The notes under the pieces are model-generated. The model was not told the DNA's origin. It did not search any database and saw only the letters and a list, made by a program, of their open reading frames with translations. A program made the translations under genes and the position numbers. Shown here piece by piece: positions 20,828 through 28,468 of a DNA stretch of 64,000 nucleotides. Position 1 is the first letter of the stretch. Every line of letters begins with the position of its first letter. The DNA comes from Ruminococcus bromii (lineage in GTDB: Bacteria; Bacillota; Clostridia; Oscillospirales; Acutalibacteraceae), in contig NZ_NNBY01000031.1 in NCBI RefSeq assembly GCF_002834235.1, forward strand, positions 62,001 to 126,000, given 5' to 3'.

Positions 20828-23800
20828 ATGAAAACAAAAATTTCTCATTTAGGCAGAAGCACTGTTTCCGTCATCCTTGCGGTAATGATGCTCCTGTCAA
20901 CAATGCTTATCGGCACTGTTTCAACAGTTAATGCTGTCACTAAGACTTTTGAAGCCGTAAATCTTGTTGGTAATATTAACGGTAACACTAAATGGGATTC
21001 AACTAAGTATCCTTTTACTTTTGATGAAACAACAGGTTATTGGTATTTAGACATTACCATTACACAGTCGAGTGAATTTAAAGCTCGTGTCAATAAGGAT
21101 TGGGTTATTAGTTTCGGTGCTTCTGGTGGTGGCAACTATATTATATCTGAAATTGGTGATTACAGAATCTCCGTTAAAGACGGTGCTGAAAATGGTACTG
21201 AACTTACTGTACAAAAGACAGTAAAAAAAGTTGCTGATAGTGTAACTCTCACAGCTAACCCTACATCTGTAAAAGTCGGAAATTCCGTTACTCTTACACC
21301 TACAGTAAGTGGTGCAAAATCGGATAATCTTACTTATACTTATAAAAAGACATCTGATGGCACAGCAACTGAAGAAAAGAATGCTGACAATTCTCTTACT
21401 GTAACCCCGACTGTAGCCGGCACTTATAAGTATACGGTCACAGTTTCAGCAGACGGTTGTTCGCCTGTTACAAGCAACGAGGTTAGTTTTACAGTAACTG
21501 ATTCTGTTAAATATTATATTGGCGGTAGATTTAAGGGTGAAAGTTGGAATCCCAACAGAACTGATATGCAATTTGTGAAGGTGGACGGAGAGTCCAATCT
21601 TTATAAATATGAAACAAATATGACAGTATCTCAACTTTCTCAAAATGTTGATAACGCTAAACAATATTTCTTCATTCATACAGGTAATGGTAACGAGAAA
21701 GTATATTATGCGAGTAGTGATAGATTAGGTCATACATTTCATAAGAATTCTATTAACAATCAGTTGACGCTAAAGTATTATCCTACTAAAGCGGATGATG
21801 AAAAAAATTATATAAAATTTGATGATGTAGCTGATAGTTCATCAAATGTAGTTCTGTATCTTGACACATCAGATAAGGATAACTTAAAGCTTTACTATTC
21901 TGCTGATATTGAACCGGACTACAGAATCACAGGTAATCTGTCAGCAATTGGCGAATGGAATGGTTATGATAGTGCTTTAAAATTCGATACCGCTGAATCA
22001 GACGGTTCATATAGTAAAGTAATTACTGTTACAGATGATGATGTAAACAATAAGTTTTTTAAGCTGATTAAGTCGGAGAATGGTTCGGACAAATATTATG
22101 GTCCGAACGATAGTACATATGATATTATTTCGAGTAATTCATCAGTTACAGCGTATGACACATTCGAAGGTTCAGGTGAAGGTAACGACTTCTATTTTAG
22201 TAAAGCAGGCACATACAAGATTCATTATATTGTAAAGACTGGTAAAAATACACCAAGTGTTTGGGTAGAGGAAAATACCACAAAATACAATGTTACTGTA
22301 GCAGAAAATATAAAGTCAATTGCGTCTGTTAATAAGACAAAGGCTGCAAAAGGCGAAAAGGTTACTGTTACTGCAACCTCGATTCCGCAAGGACAGATTC
22401 TTAACACGGTAACTGTTGTGGGTGAAGATGGTAGTACTCCAATTGAAACCACCGTAAGTGGCAACACCGCAACATTTGCAATGCCTAATCAGAATGTTAC
22501 CGTAACAAATGTAACATTCCGTACCGCAAACACATACACAGTAACATTCAGTTCAAGTGACGATAAATTCGGTACTGTTTCCGCTGAATACAACGGAACT
22601 GATTTCACTTCCGGTACAACAGTAACCGAGGGTGATGAAGTAACATTCACTGCAAAACCAAAGGATGGCTACGCTCTTTCCGACTGGACTGTAAACGGTG
22701 TATCAGCTTCTTCAACAGCTAATCCGTATACAATTACAGTCCAAAAAGACACAACCGTAGTCGCTAACTTTAAAGTAGAAGATTCAGGTACAATCGTGAA
22801 TGATATGTACTTTTTGTATGGTAGCACTAACAACCCAACAAGTTGGGAAGGACAGCAGGGATATAATCAATCAGGATATGGAAAGTATAATGTTTATAAA
22901 AAAGACGGAAAATATATAGTAACTCTTAATAAAGAACATTATAAGCAACTGTATTTTGCTTTTTCAACATCTAACTATTATAAGAACATGACACCAAAGG
23001 ATAAACTTGCCGGTGTAAATCCTGATAATCCTGTTGATTTACGTCTTGTCACCACCAGTAAAGAAAGTTTTAATGCAGATAATACCCAATATGTATTCGG
23101 TATGATGAGTGTTGTAAGTGAAAATTCTGAATATATCGGAGATATAAAAATCATCTACGACCCGATTGCTAATACATATACGGTAAAAGCTACCAAAGAT
23201 AGTGTTTCTGATACAACCGTAAATATTACAGGTAAAGACGGTACAATTCGTGCAGGCTTTACTAATACTGGTGATAAAAAAACTACCGCTGTTTTAGGTG
23301 ATACAACTCTTTCAATAACAACTCCTGATGATAAAATAATTACTGCATCTGATTCATACAAGATTGATGGTAAAAATCGTGCTGTTACTGCTAAGAAAGT
23401 TCCTTATGGCTCAACAGTAACCGTTACAACCACAATTGACCCTGACGCAACCTTTGCAGGTCACAATGGCAGTGATTACTATGTTAAGGGATTCAGCGTA
23501 AACGGTATCTTTGGCGGAGTTCTTTCACAGACTGAAGGTAAAAATCATAGTAGTGATGTATATACTTATACTTTTGAAGTAAATCAAGAGATTTATGGTT
23601 CAAAGCTTGAAATCACTCCTGTGTATTTCCTTAAAGATGATGCTAACTGCGTATATTTCTACATTGAGAACTACGATTCTGCAAAACAAATTTGGGGCAA
23701 TACTCCTTCATGTTATGTATATTATGGTAGTGGTACTACAACATTAGAAGCATTAGGCTATTACCCCGGACAACCAATGGTTGACTACAACGGTTCTATC

Positions 23801-26629
23801 TTTACTCAGATTCCTAAATCTATAGACAATGGTGATACCCCAGAAAAAATTACAGGTATGACGCTTAATAACTATGTTTGGGACGATATTCATAGTGCTT
23901 ATAACGGTAAAGATCAAAAAAGTGATAATGCACAGACATACGACTACGATGATTTTGTTAAGATAGCTGATAGCAGTGTTAATGCTGATAACATTATTTA
24001 TCGTTTTAAGTATAATACACACGATAATGTACCAGGCGCTACATTAGCTACTTCTGATGCTGATGCTGCCGGTTGGGAAGTATTCCTCGACTACCAGAAT
24101 TATCCGACAGATATTTTTGGTAATAGAATTGGTAATGATAAGCTTGACTATAAGGATACTGATAGTGTAACGAATAAGGATAATTACCTGTCAATTATTT
24201 CGGACGGTTATCAGAATAACTACATCGGTAAATATGCAACTGCGTGGAGCATTTATAACAAGGCTGGCAAAAGAGTGGCTACTATTCCTTCATCAGCTCT
24301 CTTGTATGCCCTTGACAAGACCGATGCGCAAATAAAAAAAGCCATTGATTCTGCATCAACTCCTGCTGACTTCCTCCCAGGTAAGGAAGATAGAGATAAA
24401 CATTGGGCAACATTTAAAACTTTATATGAAAATTATAAAGGTTTTTATGCTCAGATTAACTTTGAGGCAGCTATCAAAGGTGGTGCCGATTATGGCAATC
24501 GTCTTGACGGTCGTTGGTACTATACTAAGAGTCAACAGGAAATCACCGGTGAAATCAAGATTCAGTATGCAAATACCCTTGATGACTACAAAGTAGGCGG
24601 TTTCCAAGAAGATACATTTGCTGATGATCAAGCTTCATCAGTTGTCGGAAAGACAACAGGAGCAAGTGCATACTTTACCGATCCTACGAATAATGTAAGA
24701 AAACTTAAAACTGTAGCTGATAATACTCAGGATTATAAGTTTAAAGTTACTGCAACTTCAACTGCAGCATACACATTTGTTGGTTGGTACCGTCTTATTG
24801 ATGGTGATTACAAGGCAATCAATCCTTCAAATATGAGCAGTTTGACAGGTGCAGTTACACAAAATTCAGATGTAACGCTTGTTGCTCGTTATATCAAAAC
24901 TCCGGGCGGTTCAATGACCTTCCACCATTCATTGTACAACGGAACAAATGCAGGCGGCGGTAAAGCCACTACAGAAATTCAGGTTGTTGTTAAAGACAGC
25001 ACGGGTAAATCTCTTTATGATTCAGGCAAAATTGCCGGCACAGCTTCAATCGATAAGACTAAGATTGCTGAATTAGCAAAGCAAGAAGGTCTTACTGTAA
25101 CTGTTACTCTTTACACAACAACAAAGAACCTTTATAATTTCAATGGTTACTATTCTGCTGAAAACACAACAGATATAACTGCTTTTAAACCTACTTCTAC
25201 ACCAGTTGTTAGCGGAAACAGAACAGATGGCCTTGTAACTACATTAGACTATACGTTCTCGTTTGATAAATACTATAAGAAGTATGCAGACATTCTTACT
25301 GCTGCTGATGCGGGAACAGTATATTATAATTTCTATTCTGACATTACTTCTATTAAAGTACCGTATAAGGTTCAGTTCTCTTACACTGACAGAACGGGTG
25401 AACAAAAGTATTACAACAAGGCTGGTTATGTTGATCCCGAAGACACTTCATCATACACAATTGATGAGGCTACTACTAATGTTGAAGGTGTAGAATCACA
25501 TCCTGTAAAGGTAACTCTTACAGATAGCTTTATCCTTACTCTTGCACCGTATGAGTCAAACTTTACAAAGAATCTTACTTGGGATAATCCTACAGATTCT
25601 AAGCCTTTTGATTCATCAGTTAATAGCTCAATAGCGTCAGCTGTTGTTAATTCAACTCAGTCAGAAAGAACAATCCACCTTAATATTTATAAAGACAGTG
25701 AGGGTAATCCTACTCCGCTTATAAATAATGCTGGTACTTTTGCTCTTTACGAAAAAAATGGTTCATCTGAATTACCTTACGGTTCAGTGTTCTATGAACA
25801 AAATTCTGACGGAACTTATAAGTATGATATCACTGCTCTGAAAACATATAAAGATAAAGATAGTGGTAAAGAACTTCAGTTTATGTATTGGGCAATCTAC
25901 TCCGATCCGGACTGTAAAAATCTTGTTATTAATGCATACAACAGTGAAGGAAATTTCAGCTATGTAGCGTATGATAACTGTTGGATAGTTCCTGTTTATG
26001 GCGAAAGCTCAACTCCAGTTGCATCTGTTAAGGAAGTTTCTACTTCAACTCAGTTTATGGAAGTAACAAGAAATCAGTGGACAGCTGATACAAATTCCAA
26101 TTTTGCAGGATTTAACGCTGATAGTATGACTACACTTGATACAGCTAAAGATTTCATTAAGGAAAAAGGTGAAGACAAGCTTTACGCTGACTTTGTACTT
26201 AACTTTTTCTATAACGGCAAACAGCTTAGTGTATTTGATCCTGACAGCAAAAAGGTTAAGGCAGGCGTTCTTATTCAGAGGTTAGAACTTGATGAAAATG
26301 AGACTAGTACTGGATATATAACCGATTTGAATCATTATGCTAAAAAGTATGATAAGACTGCTCTTGAAAATGCTAAAAGTGATGCAATCCAAAAAATTAC
26401 AACTGGCACTTCTAATATTAAATCTGTAAAACAACAGATTAATAATAGTAGACTTGATAACAAGAACAGACTTCAGTATTATACTCTTTTTAAAAATGTC
26501 AAAGGTAATAATGATTGTGTATTTAGACTCTATACATATATCCAGTATACCGATGCAGATGGTAATTCGGCTGTTAAACTTAGCGATCCGGTTTACTTCA
26601 CATTTTATGATATTGCAAACAAGTCATAA
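20828..26629 (+). CDS. Giant secreted multi-module protein with carbohydrate-binding-like and Ig-like domains
   Basis: A 1,933-residue product from ATG 20828 (GGAGGT at 20815-20820; the in-frame ATG at 20813 overlaps this site). A signal peptide of about 36 residues ends at STVNA. Modules in order: a strand-rich module (about 40-125, ending EIGDYRISV); an Ig-like domain (about 136-225, SVTLTANPTSVKVGNSVTL); a module starting YYIGGRF (about 229-360); and a CBM20-like stretch (about 365-480, LSAIGEWNGYDSALKF). A bacterial repeat domain follows (about 568-649, GYALSDWTVNG and TTVVANF), then more than 1,200 residues of Tyr/Asn/Asp-rich strands with a further GWY...TLVARY repeat. No glycoside hydrolase catalytic motif, LPXTG signal, dockerin or cohesin was seen. 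Base use is more AT-rich than in neighbours. A role in binding starch or other glycans outside the cell is inference. Confidence 0.8.
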   Translation: MKTKISHLGRSTVSVILAVMMLLSTMLIGTVSTVNAVTKTFEAVNLVGNINGNTKWDSTKYPFTFDETTGYWYLDITITQSSEFKARVNKDWVISFGASGGGNYIISEIGDYRISVKDGAENGTELTVQKTVKKVADSVTLTANPTSVKVGNSVTLTPTVSGAKSDNLTYTYKKTSDGTATEEKNADNSLTVTPTVAGTYKYTVTVSADGCSPVTSNEVSFTVTDSVKYYIGGRFKGESWNPNRTDMQFVKVDGESNLYKYETNMTVSQLSQNVDNAKQYFFIHTGNGNEKVYYASSDRLGHTFHKNSINNQLTLKYYPTKADDEKNYIKFDDVADSSSNVVLYLDTSDKDNLKLYYSADIEPDYRITGNLSAIGEWNGYDSALKFDTAESDGSYSKVITVTDDDVNNKFFKLIKSENGSDKYYGPNDSTYDIISSNSSVTAYDTFEGSGEGNDFYFSKAGTYKIHYIVKTGKNTPSVWVEENTTKYNVTVAENIKSIASVNKTKAAKGEKVTVTATSIPQGQILNTVTVVGEDGSTPIETTVSGNTATFAMPNQNVTVTNVTFRTANTYTVTFSSSDDKFGTVSAEYNGTDFTSGTTVTEGDEVTFTAKPKDGYALSDWTVNGVSASSTANPYTITVQKDTTVVANFKVEDSGTIVNDMYFLYGSTNNPTSWEGQQGYNQSGYGKYNVYKKDGKYIVTLNKEHYKQLYFAFSTSNYYKNMTPKDKLAGVNPDNPVDLRLVTTSKESFNADNTQYVFGMMSVVSENSEYIGDIKIIYDPIANTYTVKATKDSVSDTTVNITGKDGTIRAGFTNTGDKKTTAVLGDTTLSITTPDDKIITASDSYKIDGKNRAVTAKKVPYGSTVTVTTTIDPDATFAGHNGSDYYVKGFSVNGIFGGVLSQTEGKNHSSDVYTYTFEVNQEIYGSKLEITPVYFLKDDANCVYFYIENYDSAKQIWGNTPSCYVYYGSGTTTLEALGYYPGQPMVDYNGSIFTQIPKSIDNGDTPEKITGMTLNNYVWDDIHSAYNGKDQKSDNAQTYDYDDFVKIADSSVNADNIIYRFKYNTHDNVPGATLATSDADAAGWEVFLDYQNYPTDIFGNRIGNDKLDYKDTDSVTNKDNYLSIISDGYQNNYIGKYATAWSIYNKAGKRVATIPSSALLYALDKTDAQIKKAIDSASTPADFLPGKEDRDKHWATFKTLYENYKGFYAQINFEAAIKGGADYGNRLDGRWYYTKSQQEITGEIKIQYANTLDDYKVGGFQEDTFADDQASSVVGKTTGASAYFTDPTNNVRKLKTVADNTQDYKFKVTATSTAAYTFVGWYRLIDGDYKAINPSNMSSLTGAVTQNSDVTLVARYIKTPGGSMTFHHSLYNGTNAGGGKATTEIQVVVKDSTGKSLYDSGKIAGTASIDKTKIAELAKQEGLTVTVTLYTTTKNLYNFNGYYSAENTTDITAFKPTSTPVVSGNRTDGLVTTLDYTFSFDKYYKKYADILTAADAGTVYYNFYSDITSIKVPYKVQFSYTDRTGEQKYYNKAGYVDPEDTSSYTIDEATTNVEGVESHPVKVTLTDSFILTLAPYESNFTKNLTWDNPTDSKPFDSSVNSSIASAVVNSTQSERTIHLNIYKDSEGNPTPLINNAGTFALYEKNGSSELPYGSVFYEQNSDGTYKYDITALKTYKDKDSGKELQFMYWAIYSDPDCKNLVINAYNSEGNFSYVAYDNCWIVPVYGESSTPVASVKEVSTSTQFMEVTRNQWTADTNSNFAGFNADSMTTLDTAKDFIKEKGEDKLYADFVLNFFYNGKQLSVFDPDSKKVKAGVLIQRLELDENETSTGYITDLNHYAKKYDKTALENAKSDAIQKITTGTSNIKSVKQQINNSRLDNKNRLQYYTLFKNVKGNNDCVFRLYTYIQYTDADGNSAVKLSDPVYFTFYDIANKS

Positions 26630-26672: not shown

Positions 26673-26694
26673 AGAATGAATTAAGGAGTTATTT

Positions 26695-26835
26695 ATGAAA
26701 AAAGAATATTTCTCCCCTGAATTTGAGCTTGTTAAGTTTCAATTTGAGGATGTAATTTTAGTAGGAAGCTTAACTGATGTTCCGGAAGTAGGAGACAGTA
26801 ATGGAGATAAGGTTGATGGCTTTGAAGAGGAATAA
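26695..26835 (+). CDS. 46-residue peptide resembling a RiPP leader/precursor
   Basis: ATG 26695 follows AAGGAG (26683-26688) by 6 nt. The product begins MKKEYFSPEFELVKFQFEDV, continues ILVGSLTDVPEVGDSNGD and ends KVDGFEEE. It has no signal peptide and is acidic at its C-terminus. The YxxPxF segment resembles the YxxPxL motif by which lasso-peptide leaders bind their recognition protein. Its end overlaps the start of the LRR-dockerin gene, so it is translated with its neighbours. An HprK-like P-loop gene, a partner type known from some lasso-peptide clusters, lies 0.9 kb downstream. No cyclase, PqqD-like protein or peptidase is nearby, so a RiPP role is only a hypothesis. It could be a small regulatory or secretion-related peptide. 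Confidence 0.6.
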   Translation: MKKEYFSPEFELVKFQFEDVILVGSLTDVPEVGDSNGDKVDGFEEE

Positions 26836-27700
26836 ACAGTTTTTTGTTTCGATAAAAAAGATTTCTGCTTTTATCTTCGCATTTTTGTTGGTGCTGATTT
26901 CTATATTTCAAATTTCTGCGGCTTCATATGAAACCGACGGCTTTGTATATTCTGTTTCCGATGGTAATGCGAGCGTAACCGGATATAAAGGTGATAAGAC
27001 CGATATTGTTCTTCCGCTTAAGCTCCAAAGCTGGTCGGTATCGGAAATTTCTGATTTTGCCTTTGTGGGAAAGACCGCAATAACATCGGTCAGGCTTAAC
27101 GAAGCAAGATATCTTAGAAGAATCGGTACTGATTCTTTTTACGGTTGTACTTCACTTGAATCAATTTCAATTCCTATCTGGGTGAGAGATTTTGGTGCTG
27201 CCGTATTTCAGAATTGCACAAGTTTGAAATCTGTTACCTTTAACTGTGTGCCGAGTAAAATTACCGATCAGATGTTTTACAATTGTACTTCTTTAGGCAA
27301 GGTATATTTACCTGCCGGTACAAGTGCGATTGGTAAGAGTGCTTTTGCTGAATGTGCATCACTGTCAGAGGTGTATATTCCTACATCCGTGACTTCTATT
27401 GCTTCTAACGCTTTCAGAAGCTCTCCGAATGTAACAATCAAGGGCAGTTACGGTTCTTATGCCGAGGAATATGCAAAGGCTAACAATATTCCGTTTAACG
27501 GCATTTCTGTTTATGATGTCGGTGATGTTAATATGGATGGCGGGATTAATATTTTAGATGCAACTCTTGTGCAGAAGTATGTTGTCGGTATTGTTGAACT
27601 TTCGGCAGAACAAAAACATCTTGCCGATTATAACAACGACGGTGACATCACAGTATTTGACGCAACGGGAATTCAGAAGTTTATCGTTCATTTAAACTAA
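26816..27700 (+). CDS. Secreted BspA-type leucine-rich-repeat protein with C-terminal type I dockerin
   Basis: A 294-residue product from ATG 26816 (GGAG 26803-26806); ATG 26801 is an alternative with GGAG at 26791. Both overlap the peptide gene. A signal sequence ends near QISAAS. Residues ~50-215 form LRR_5/BspA-type repeats (CTSLESISIPIWV, CTSLKSVTF, CTSLGKVYLP, CASLSEVYIPTSVTSI). The C-terminal ~60 residues are a dockerin with two calcium-binding F-hands (GDVNMDGGINILDATLVQKY and DYNNDGDITVFDATGIQKF). Dockerins bind cohesins on scaffoldins, so the protein probably joins a cell-surface complex such as a cellulosome or amylosome. The cohesin partner is not in this window. Confidence 0.9.
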   Translation: MALKRNKQFFVSIKKISAFIFAFLLVLISIFQISAASYETDGFVYSVSDGNASVTGYKGDKTDIVLPLKLQSWSVSEISDFAFVGKTAITSVRLNEARYLRRIGTDSFYGCTSLESISIPIWVRDFGAAVFQNCTSLKSVTFNCVPSKITDQMFYNCTSLGKVYLPAGTSAIGKSAFAECASLSEVYIPTSVTSIASNAFRSSPNVTIKGSYGSYAEEYAKANNIPFNGISVYDVGDVNMDGGINILDATLVQKYVVGIVELSAEQKHLADYNNDGDITVFDATGIQKFIVHLN

Positions 27701-27710
27701 CCAATAAAAA

Positions 27711-27743
27711 AACAGGCTCACTTTTTGTGAGTCTGTTTTATTT
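27711..27743 (+). terminator. Hairpin terminator between the dockerin gene and the HprK-like gene
   Basis: AACAGGCTCAC (27711-27721) pairs with GTGAGTCTGTT (27727-27737, one G-U pair), followed by TTTATTT. The next gene's ribosome site begins 2 nt later, so readthrough may still feed it. Confidence 0.75.
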
Positions 27744-27754
27744 CGGAGGACGCT

Positions 27755-28468
27755 TTGCCAAAATATTTAATAGCTGATTTTATCGTTGAAATTGAACCAA
27801 AATTTGATTACTTAAAAAAATTGTGCGAACCGTTTTTGTATGAAGGGGAGAGAATTGCAGATTTTTCTGCAATACCGTCAGACTCATACTTAAATTCCCT
27901 GTTGAGCCGTATGGTTGAAGGTTCAACCATTGATGAAGCCGAAGAATTTGCAACGGCGTCAATTTTTAACCGCAAAATAATTCACTGTGGTGCTATGCTT
28001 GTTCATTCCTCGGCACTTGTTTTTGACGGAAAAGCGTATTTGTTTTCCGCCGATTCAGGTGTCGGCAAATCCACTCATACAAAGATGTGGCTGAAAAGAT
28101 TCGGCTCAAAAGCTCATATTCTCAATGACGATAAGCCTGTTGTGAAAATTAAAAACGAAGTCCCGCTATGCTGTGGAACTCCGTTTGACGGCGGAAGCGG
28201 AATTGCTAACAACGAAACCGTTCCCGTAGGCGCTATAATATTTATAGAACGCTCAGACGATAATTTTGTTACAATTCACGACACAAATGAGATTGTACAA
28301 AGACTCTATAAATCAACTGTCAAATTTGTGAATAAGTCAGACGGAATGTCTTTGCTCTCAAATCTCGATAATCTTATTCGGCATACAAAATTTTATGTAC
28401 TGCATTGCAATACAGATGAGTGTGCCGTAGATGTTGCCTACAACAATATAATTAAAAACTGCAAATAA
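27755..28468 (+). CDS. HPr-kinase-like P-loop protein (PadeK/PEPCK-like fold)
   Basis: A 237-residue protein starting with TTG 27755, 4 nt after GGAGGA. About 85 residues of alpha/beta sequence are followed by HSSALVFDGKAYLFSADSGVGKST, holding a Walker A (about residues 98-107), and by ILNDDKPVV, which matches the second phosphate-binding motif of HprK-type kinases. Homologues of this size without the HprK N-domain are known as tailoring kinases in some lasso-peptide clusters and as uncharacterised genes elsewhere. True HprK is longer and carries a different signature, so this is not the carbon-catabolite kinase. Its nearest candidate substrate here is the 46-residue peptide. A bidirectional terminator separates it from ilvE. 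Confidence 0.75.
   Translation: MPKYLIADFIVEIEPKFDYLKKLCEPFLYEGERIADFSAIPSDSYLNSLLSRMVEGSTIDEAEEFATASIFNRKIIHCGAMLVHSSALVFDGKAYLFSADSGVGKSTHTKMWLKRFGSKAHILNDDKPVVKIKNEVPLCCGTPFDGGSGIANNETVPVGAIIFIERSDDNFVTIHDTNEIVQRLYKSTVKFVNKSDGMSLLSNLDNLIRHTKFYVLHCNTDECAVDVAYNNIIKNCK

Follow-up and report, generated by a model that had tools for sequence, protein, structure and literature searches.

Does a frame of 46 codons lying between two genes for secreted proteins in Ruminococcus bromii encode a real peptide, and does this peptide belong with the HprK-like kinase gene found shortly downstream? The question was raised by a preliminary description of a 64,000-nt stretch of assembly GCF_002834235.1 (contig NZ_NNBY01000031.1, positions 62,001 to 126,000; hereafter the window, whose source assembly comprises 2.4 Mb in 52 contigs). 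Its plus strand carries, in this order, the genes for a giant secreted protein, the 46-aa peptide, a leucine-rich repeat (LRR) protein ending in a dockerin (LRR-dockerin) and the HprK-like protein. The peptide is a real gene, it belongs to a family found within the genus and across the order, and its presence follows that of the kinase. It is probably a precursor akin to those of ribosomally synthesized and post-translationally modified peptides (RiPPs), which would be bound by a PqqD-type protein, phosphorylated near its middle and put to work with the adjacent secreted proteins.

Conservation of the 46-residue peptide

The peptide, MKKEYFSPEFELVKFQFEDVILVGSLTDVPEVGDSNGDKVDGFEEE, is encoded at 26695-26835 (+) and its ATG is preceded at 6 nt by a ribosome site, AAGGAG (26683-26688, +), similar sites being present in relatives. 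A frame of this size is unremarkable by itself, as 105 open reading frames (ORFs) of at least 40 aa overlap 18 kb of the window, but it stands above chance because it is conserved. Versions at the same place were found in R. bromii ATCC 27255 (L003; 41 aa) and in RUG11705 (L004; 47 aa with a GTG start), and in two more distant loci, L006 (46 aa) and L009 (48 aa), the first half of the peptide is similar to that of the window. In most relatives this half reads MKKxYxxPExExxKFxFED, with a start of the type MKKxYxxPE[FI]E, while the tail is not conserved. The frame and ribosome site thus stand as first described, and a lack of homologues in relatives, which would have counted against the proposed system, is refuted. 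Over the first 24 codons, the window and L003 differ by 9 synonymous and 4 non-synonymous changes, with 4, 2 and 11 differences at the three codon positions; over 22 codons, GTG start included, the comparison with L004 gives 3 synonymous and 8 non-synonymous changes, so that no synonymous excess is seen for that pair.

Among 13 relatives of the kinase in public genome contigs, five have the peptide upstream (L003, L004, L006, L009 and L015) and in eight none was found (L005, L007, L008 and L010-L014), the stretches of L008, L010 and L011 offering ca. 265, 857 and 1174 bases upstream. Searches of the peptide against Pfam and NCBIfam returned no family at E <= 1. The overlap previously reported between the peptide and the LRR-dockerin ORF amounts to 35 nt with a start of the latter at 26801. 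Its extent varies with the start codon assumed, and it is not conserved: in L003 the likely LRR-dockerin start lies 4 nt past the peptide stop.

Co-occurrence of peptide and kinase

The link between the two genes was examined in an order sample of 245 genomes, with presence counts drawn from the full genome tables (peptide profile A3 at E <= 0.01, kinase at E <= 1e-8, PqqD at E <= 1e-5). The peptide occurs in 55 genomes and the kinase in 67, with 51 holding both and 174 neither (Fisher p 1.6e-33, shared ancestry ignored); in other words, the kinase is found in 51 of the 55 peptide-positive genomes versus 16 of the 190 others. Counted by genus, it is present in 36 of 39 peptide genera versus 10 of 88 others (p 4.4e-19, shared ancestry likewise ignored). 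These counts bear out the peptide-kinase association that had been put forward. PqqD is found in 97 of the 245 genomes (48 with the peptide) and NTP_transf_5 in 77 (42 with the peptide); kinase, PqqD and NTP_transf_5 are all present in 39 of the 55 peptide genomes. The sole control-type check of the co-occurrence is provided by the 33 genomes having PqqD and no kinase, none of which has the peptide (0/33). Distances in the order were taken from 82 kinase, 84 PqqD (weaker ones left out) and 116 peptide matches, and in several genera PqqD and the kinase are next or near genes.

Within the genus, 98 of 100 genomes have a match to the kinase profile (E <= 1e-10), 97 to PqqD (E <= 1e-5) and 90 to the peptide profile A2 at the lax threshold of E <= 1, with up to 10 peptides per genome; one genome (G062, 98% complete) matches none of the three. 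Linkage was counted among the matches listed, namely 150 for the kinase, 150 for PqqD and 148 for the peptide. On this basis, a PqqD gene is found within 3 kb of 36 of the 150 kinases (0.37 expected). Of the 148 peptides, 25 have a same-strand kinase or PqqD no more than 3 kb away, where about 0.75 would be expected by chance, and none has one that close on the opposite strand. The enzymes and precursors are thus mostly unlinked in the genus, which suggests action in trans, one enzyme set probably serving scattered precursors. The window genome itself has one peptide precursor found, which is not linked to its PqqD. It had been suggested that a kinase regularly found without such a peptide would speak against the association. 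Locally this is the usual situation, as only 12 of the 48 best-scoring genus kinases (here termed window-type, with no tree clade behind the term) are near a listed peptide; genome-wide it is not, since 40 of the 46 genomes holding these 48 kinases have a listed peptide somewhere and, in the order, 51 of 67 kinase genomes have one.

The kinase-like protein

The 237-aa product of the ORF at 27755-28468 (+), which starts with TTG behind a GGAGG at 27745-27749, contains the Walker A sequence SADSGVGKST already pointed out in the preliminary description. Its closest named relative is that of R. bromii ATCC 27255 (95% identity). No Pfam match was obtained at E <= 1, the best NCBIfam relative is the SynChlorMet protein ScmC (TIGR04249; 2.9e-6, 26.9 bits for a cut-off of 125), and the kinase profile returned only weak P-loop matches among PDB sequences (best E 0.18). 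The AlphaFold model, which has a mean predicted local distance difference test (pLDDT) score of 91.1, gave Foldseek E-values of 3.5e-6 to phosphoenolpyruvate carboxykinase (PEPCK) and 8.0e-6 to HPr kinase/phosphorylase (HprK/P); its best structural alignment was to PEPCK (Z 13.5, root-mean-square deviation 3.4, 212 aligned), and an HprK/PEPCK fold is accordingly predicted from the model. HprK-like kinases are known to phosphorylate lasso precursors, and for one of them, BsfK, a motif H...G..GxGKS...DD comprising eight named residues has been described (PMC10368454, extract). Matched by eye and spacing, seven of the eight have counterparts in the window kinase, which departs from the motif in having A99 for the first Gly and the DD pair three residues further on; H84, G102, G104, K105, S106, D125 and D126 are invariant in 14 kinase sequences. 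A shared fold and motif are not proof of kinase activity, and phosphorylation of a precursor Ser/Thr is a prediction.

An ordinary HPr kinase was considered and rejected because there is no Pfam match and the structure comparison yields a related fold only. The resemblance to HprK/P consists in this related fold, while the window kinase differs by the missing Pfam match and by a gene context of peptides and secreted proteins. ScmC and the HprK-related kinases A and B (TIGR04352 and TIGR04355) are distant sequence relatives, yet the window-genome kinase scores far below the cut-offs of these families, as the ScmC score given above illustrates. Genes for ScmC and for HprK-related kinases A and B also stand near PqqD-like genes.

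A second kinase of the window genome is located on contig C34 (L081:7733-8485) and matches HprK_rel_B at 0.0016; neither peptide nor PqqD was found within the 16 kb read around it. Two genes come after it, one of which (the nearer) begins like an NAD(P)HX epimerase; both recur as neighbours in L086, L090 and L092, where a peptide was likewise not found. Kinase matches carrying one in-frame stop codon, which may reflect decay, an assembly error or recoding, were also observed in six genomes (G002:C66, G004:C189, G022:C10, G029:C69, G048:C30 and G084:C13).

Peptide motif and candidate phosphorylation site

The leader-like segment of the window peptide is of the lasso type YxxPx[L/F], with Y5, P8 and F10. 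In the genus, 83 peptide sites were examined, mostly the best-scoring, with about a dozen of similar score left out (81 after duplicate removal); for the motif, two of the 83 were dropped for want of an anchor and 71 remained without near-duplicates. Conservation of Tyr and Pro in this set is circular because the anchor demanded Tyr and, mostly, Pro. Outside the genus, 48 matches gave 38 peptides without near-duplicates, for which the consensus is Y-x2-P…E-D-[VI]-I-T-x-S with Ser at Tyr+19. In this set, which was aligned by a model built from the genus peptides that covers the Ser column, and for which the presence of a kinase guided the choice of many loci in the range L171-L190, Y/F is found in 38, P(+3) in 36, E(+13) in 28, D(+14) in 34, V/I(+15) in 35, T(+17) in 20 and S(+19) in 29 peptides, and 36 of 38 have a Ser or Thr somewhere in +17 to +20. 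In the genus, Ser occurs at Tyr+19 in 37 of 71 peptides. The tails from Tyr+20 on are acidic, with a mean net charge of -6.0 (range -14 to -2) over the same 71.

The YxxPxL recognition motif of lasso precursors occupies positions -17 to -12 (PMC10368454, extract), YxxP being named as the lasso recognition motif in PMC12710340 as well; Tyr+19 therefore corresponds to core residue 3. According to PMC10368454, BsfK phosphorylates core Ser3, the PqqD partner BsfB1 strongly stimulates this reaction, and replacing either Tyr(-17) or Leu(-12) alone by Ala leaves phosphorylation unaffected, so that the motif is perhaps not strictly required. In the window peptide, Ser/Thr are found as claimed (S25, T27 and S34), together with a variable acidic tail. 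Codons 25-27 (Ser-Leu-Thr; 26767-26775, +) would supply candidate acceptors of phosphate, Ser at Tyr+20 and Thr at Tyr+22, which lie one and three positions beyond the Ser column of the family. With Tyr set at -17, the core of the window peptide would begin with Leu; among the 71 genus peptides this position holds Leu in 24, Thr in 10 and Ala in 9, and outside the genus Thr in 20 of 38. A lasso core has a small residue such as Gly at position 1 and Asp or Glu at positions 7-9. C-terminal phosphorylation of the paeninodin type was set aside, as the window peptide ends in Glu and only 2 of the 71 genus peptides end in Ser.

A distinct peptide subfamily was observed in L104 and L113 and, more loosely, in L131, L138 and L139. 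Unlike in the main family, its tails are alike too (YEDDETSRI in L104 and L113); its leader is ExxxLEIIKFQTEDVITTS or near.

Partner enzymes and gene cassettes

No cyclase, PqqD or peptidase gene had been seen near the peptide, and this observation holds. The sole Pfam PqqD match over cut-off in the window genome lies on another contig (C25:29086-29295), and the lasso B2 protease family PF13471 is unmatched in the genome at E <= 1e-5. The best NCBIfam relatives of this PqqD are lasso PqqD chaperones, below cut-off (35.5 versus 70 bits). On C25, near groEL, it stands together with a signal-peptidase-like gene (a weak match, 22.3 versus 51.85 bits) and an NTP_transf_5 gene, with no peptide or kinase and no adjoining ATP-binding cassette (ABC) gene; a second NTP_transf_5 match is found on contig C47. 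The signal-peptidase-like protein might act as leader protease. The earlier notion of a stripped-down RiPP comes close to what is seen in the cassettes of relatives, but the set is split rather than stripped, with the PqqD, peptidase-like and NTP_transf_5 genes on a different contig.

Fuller cassettes were found in the genus, with the order giant protein, peptide, LRR-dockerin, kinase, PqqD, ABC exporter and NTP_transf_5 in L088, L089 and L091, and giant-like protein, peptide, PqqD, signal-peptidase-like protein, kinase and ABC in L100. Loci of other genera (L171-L177, L179, L180 and L182) have similar gene sets, most of them incomplete; of all the cassettes read, L173 alone unites all six of peptide, kinase, PqqD, peptidase-like, ABC and NTP_transf_5 genes.

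Known clusters for phosphorylated lasso peptides (paeninodin, pseudomycoidin and bsf of Bradymonas) resemble these cassettes in the YxxP-type leader, the discrete PqqD/B1 protein and the HprK-like precursor kinase, often also in a nucleotidyltransferase and an ABC exporter, and Ser at Tyr+19 of the present family corresponds to Ser3 of BsfA. They differ in that here no B2 was found and no cyclase lies near, a signal-peptidase-like gene occurs in several cassettes, the core is acidic, and relatives have several scattered precursors per genome, mostly beside secreted-protein genes. At E <= 1e-5, PF13471 was found in 0 of the 100 genus genomes (window genome included) and in 0 of the 55 peptide-positive order genomes. 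Of 14 genomes tested for Asn_synthase (PF00733), the cassette genomes G121 and G173 have none, and in the other 12 the gene lies on a different contig or no closer than 30 kb to the peptide cassettes; in G026 one Asn_synthase gene is located ca. 5 kb from a stand-alone kinase, on the opposite strand. The identification as a lasso peptide was consequently rejected, B2 not having been found and no cyclase being near the cassettes. In the open-access literature searched, no description of a cyclase-free system of peptide, HprK-like kinase and PqqD was found.

From these comparisons, the following sequence of events is proposed. The N-terminal half of the peptide would serve as leader, its YxxPx[FIL] motif resembling those that PqqD-type recognition proteins bind, and the C-terminal half would form a short, acidic and fast-varying core. 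The HprK-like kinase, assisted by the PqqD encoded on another contig, would phosphorylate a Ser/Thr just past the leader, at Tyr+19 in most relatives outside the genus and at S25 or T27 in the window. The NTP_transf_5 protein may then add a sugar or nucleotide to the phosphate, by analogy with pseudomycoidin, in which a nucleotidyltransferase decorates the phosphate in this way (review PMC8498205, extract); that both enzymes share a family is only putative. The signal-peptidase-like protein may cut the leader and an ABC exporter may carry out the product, which would act with the giant and LRR-dockerin proteins. In many relatives, several precursors scattered over the genome would share a single set of enzymes acting in trans.

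Association with secreted-protein genes

A same-strand ORF ends no more than 120 nt upstream of the peptide (or overlaps it by up to 30 nt) in 64 of the 79 peptide loci with enough upstream DNA; 62 of these 64 ORFs are at least 400 aa long or extend past the end of the DNA read, and 41 are giant-like. Downstream, an LRR-dockerin-like gene is present in 47 of the 79 loci with enough downstream DNA, and 43 loci have both neighbours. By way of background, the other ORFs of at least 100 aa in the same loci (n=297) include 9 giant-like and 11 LRR-dockerin-like. Because of these counts, secreted-protein genes are the most constant neighbours of the peptide in the genus, more so than the kinase, which upholds the link with secreted proteins that had been proposed.

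In L071, L075 and L079, the pair of secreted protein and peptide is followed by a gene of ca. 165 aa, of one kind, instead of the LRR-dockerin gene; by eye, its product begins like a GNAT acetyltransferase.

Alternative explanations

Several observations weigh against a phosphorylated precursor. A conserved terminator-like hairpin (see below) sits between the LRR-dockerin gene and the kinase; Ser25 of the window peptide falls at Tyr+20, one position off the conserved column, and Thr27 at Tyr+22; and positions Tyr+18 to +20 are free of Ser in some close relatives (L009 and L057). Among the matches listed, 123 of 148 genus peptides have no kinase or PqqD within 3 kb, a listed peptide is missing at that distance from 36 of the 48 best-scoring kinases (12 have one), and PqqD adjoins only one of these 48. 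One complete genus genome (G010, 100%) has a kinase and two weak peptide matches with no PqqD match, and another (G074, 72%) has peptides with both kinase and PqqD unmatched. In the order, the kinase is missing from 4 of 55 peptide genomes (G119, 98% complete; G164, 75%; G208, 90%; G343, 68%), PqqD is unmatched in 7 of 55, among which G145, G192 and G252 do have the kinase, and no peptide match was obtained in 16 of the 67 kinase genomes; the p-values of the co-occurrence, moreover, treat kindred genomes as independent. Finally, L082 holds consecutive genes for giant protein, LRR-dockerin, kinase, PqqD, peptidase-like protein, ABC exporter and NTP_transf_5 with no peptide found between the first two, which are separated by 62 nt (L082:5117-5179), the peptide of that genome lying elsewhere (L085).

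A rival reading is a peptide that is never modified and helps the secretion or assembly of the giant and LRR-dockerin proteins as chaperone, pilot or translational partner, the kinase being a neighbour with another substrate. The constancy of the secreted-protein neighbours, the proximity of kinase or PqqD to just 25 of the 148 listed genus peptides and the hairpin 5' of the kinase all agree with it. Such a helper is nonetheless unlikely, given that peptide presence across the order tracks the kinase closely, that several genera have PqqD and kinase genes adjacent or close by and that ED[VI]ITxS and YxxP are conserved with the spacing of lasso-type precursors. Alternatively, the phosphorylated peptide might stay in the cytoplasm as a regulator reporting on secretion of the giant protein, nothing being exported. 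By eye the peptide has no signal-peptide-like stretch, and the PqqD trio of the window genome has no ABC gene alongside, but an ABC exporter or signal-peptidase-like gene is present in several cassettes, and a purely internal signal appears distinctly improbable. A lasso system reduced to precursor and kinase could be entertained, as the YxxP leader, PqqD, HprK-like kinase, nucleotidyltransferase and ABC exporter all occur in lasso clusters (PMC8498205, PMC7533575 and PMC12710340, extracts). A ruminal survey linked HprK, PqqD and nucleotidyltransferase genes with such clusters (PMC7533575, extract). A reduced lasso system is made very improbable by the complete lack of PF13471 matches and the distribution of Asn_synthase reported above. 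It is scarcely credible that the frame is spurious, or a transcription or translation attenuator between the secreted-protein genes: small size and overlap with the next ORF in the window would fit, yet the protein-level conservation across genera, the multi-copy family and the mostly silent changes relative to R. bromii ATCC 27255 (9 of 13 codons) contradict it.

The reading as a phosphorylated, PqqD-bound precursor is thus the one retained. More tentatively, it may extend to an as yet undescribed class of RiPP-like products, found widely in R. bromii and the order around it, of linear acidic phosphopeptides (perhaps phosphoglycopeptides) made by one set of PqqD, HprK-like kinase and NTP_transf_5, for which many genomes would hold several scattered precursors, each beside a giant secreted protein and often an LRR-dockerin partner; these would be dedicated cofactors, tags or signals of surface and cellulosome-like proteins and not antibiotics. 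If so, a modification encountered in this analysis only as a lasso decoration would lie at the heart of a common peptide system that does without a cyclase. This system would span bacteria of the gut and the rumen, among them R. bromii, a keystone degrader of starch, with its dockerin proteins. The reading would also account for a large family of tiny genes adjoining giant secreted proteins, and it would predict the modified residue.

Features of the flanking genes

The giant secreted protein (1933 aa; 20828-26629, +) has a Flg_new_2 (InlB B-repeat) domain, a weak Big_3_5 match and, by eye, a signal-peptide-like start; comparison with solved structures gave no useful relative, the single match being to an antibody (E 0.099). 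The LRR-dockerin gene (26801-27700, +) encodes a secreted BspA-type LRR protein (LRR_5, 4.8e-29) with a C-terminal type I dockerin (Dockerin_1, 4.1e-11) at residues 241-294, both matches being over cut-off (43.3 versus 22.9 bits for the dockerin). LRR-dockerin proteins Doc1 and Doc2 of the R. bromii amylosome were detected by surface proteomics (PMC9112005, extract), and the class to which this neighbour belongs is therefore real surface material. The likeness to the amylosome Doc proteins lies in the secreted LRR-dockerin gene 3' of the window peptide; the difference is that the accessible part of PMC9112005 names no such peptide or kinase, and amylosome membership of the window LRR-dockerin is only putative.

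Directly 5' of the kinase ribosome site, a 13-bp hairpin followed by a T-rich stretch is located at 27709-27739 (+). Its stem, ACAGGCTCAC/GTGAG(T/C)CTGT, is kept 5' of the kinase in the window and in four relatives (L003, L004, L006 and L009), with varying loop and flanks. A promoter and terminator scan left the hairpin unflagged on the plus strand and flagged its core on the minus strand; on the plus strand it was detected by folding, and it may end transcription there or regulate the kinase gene.

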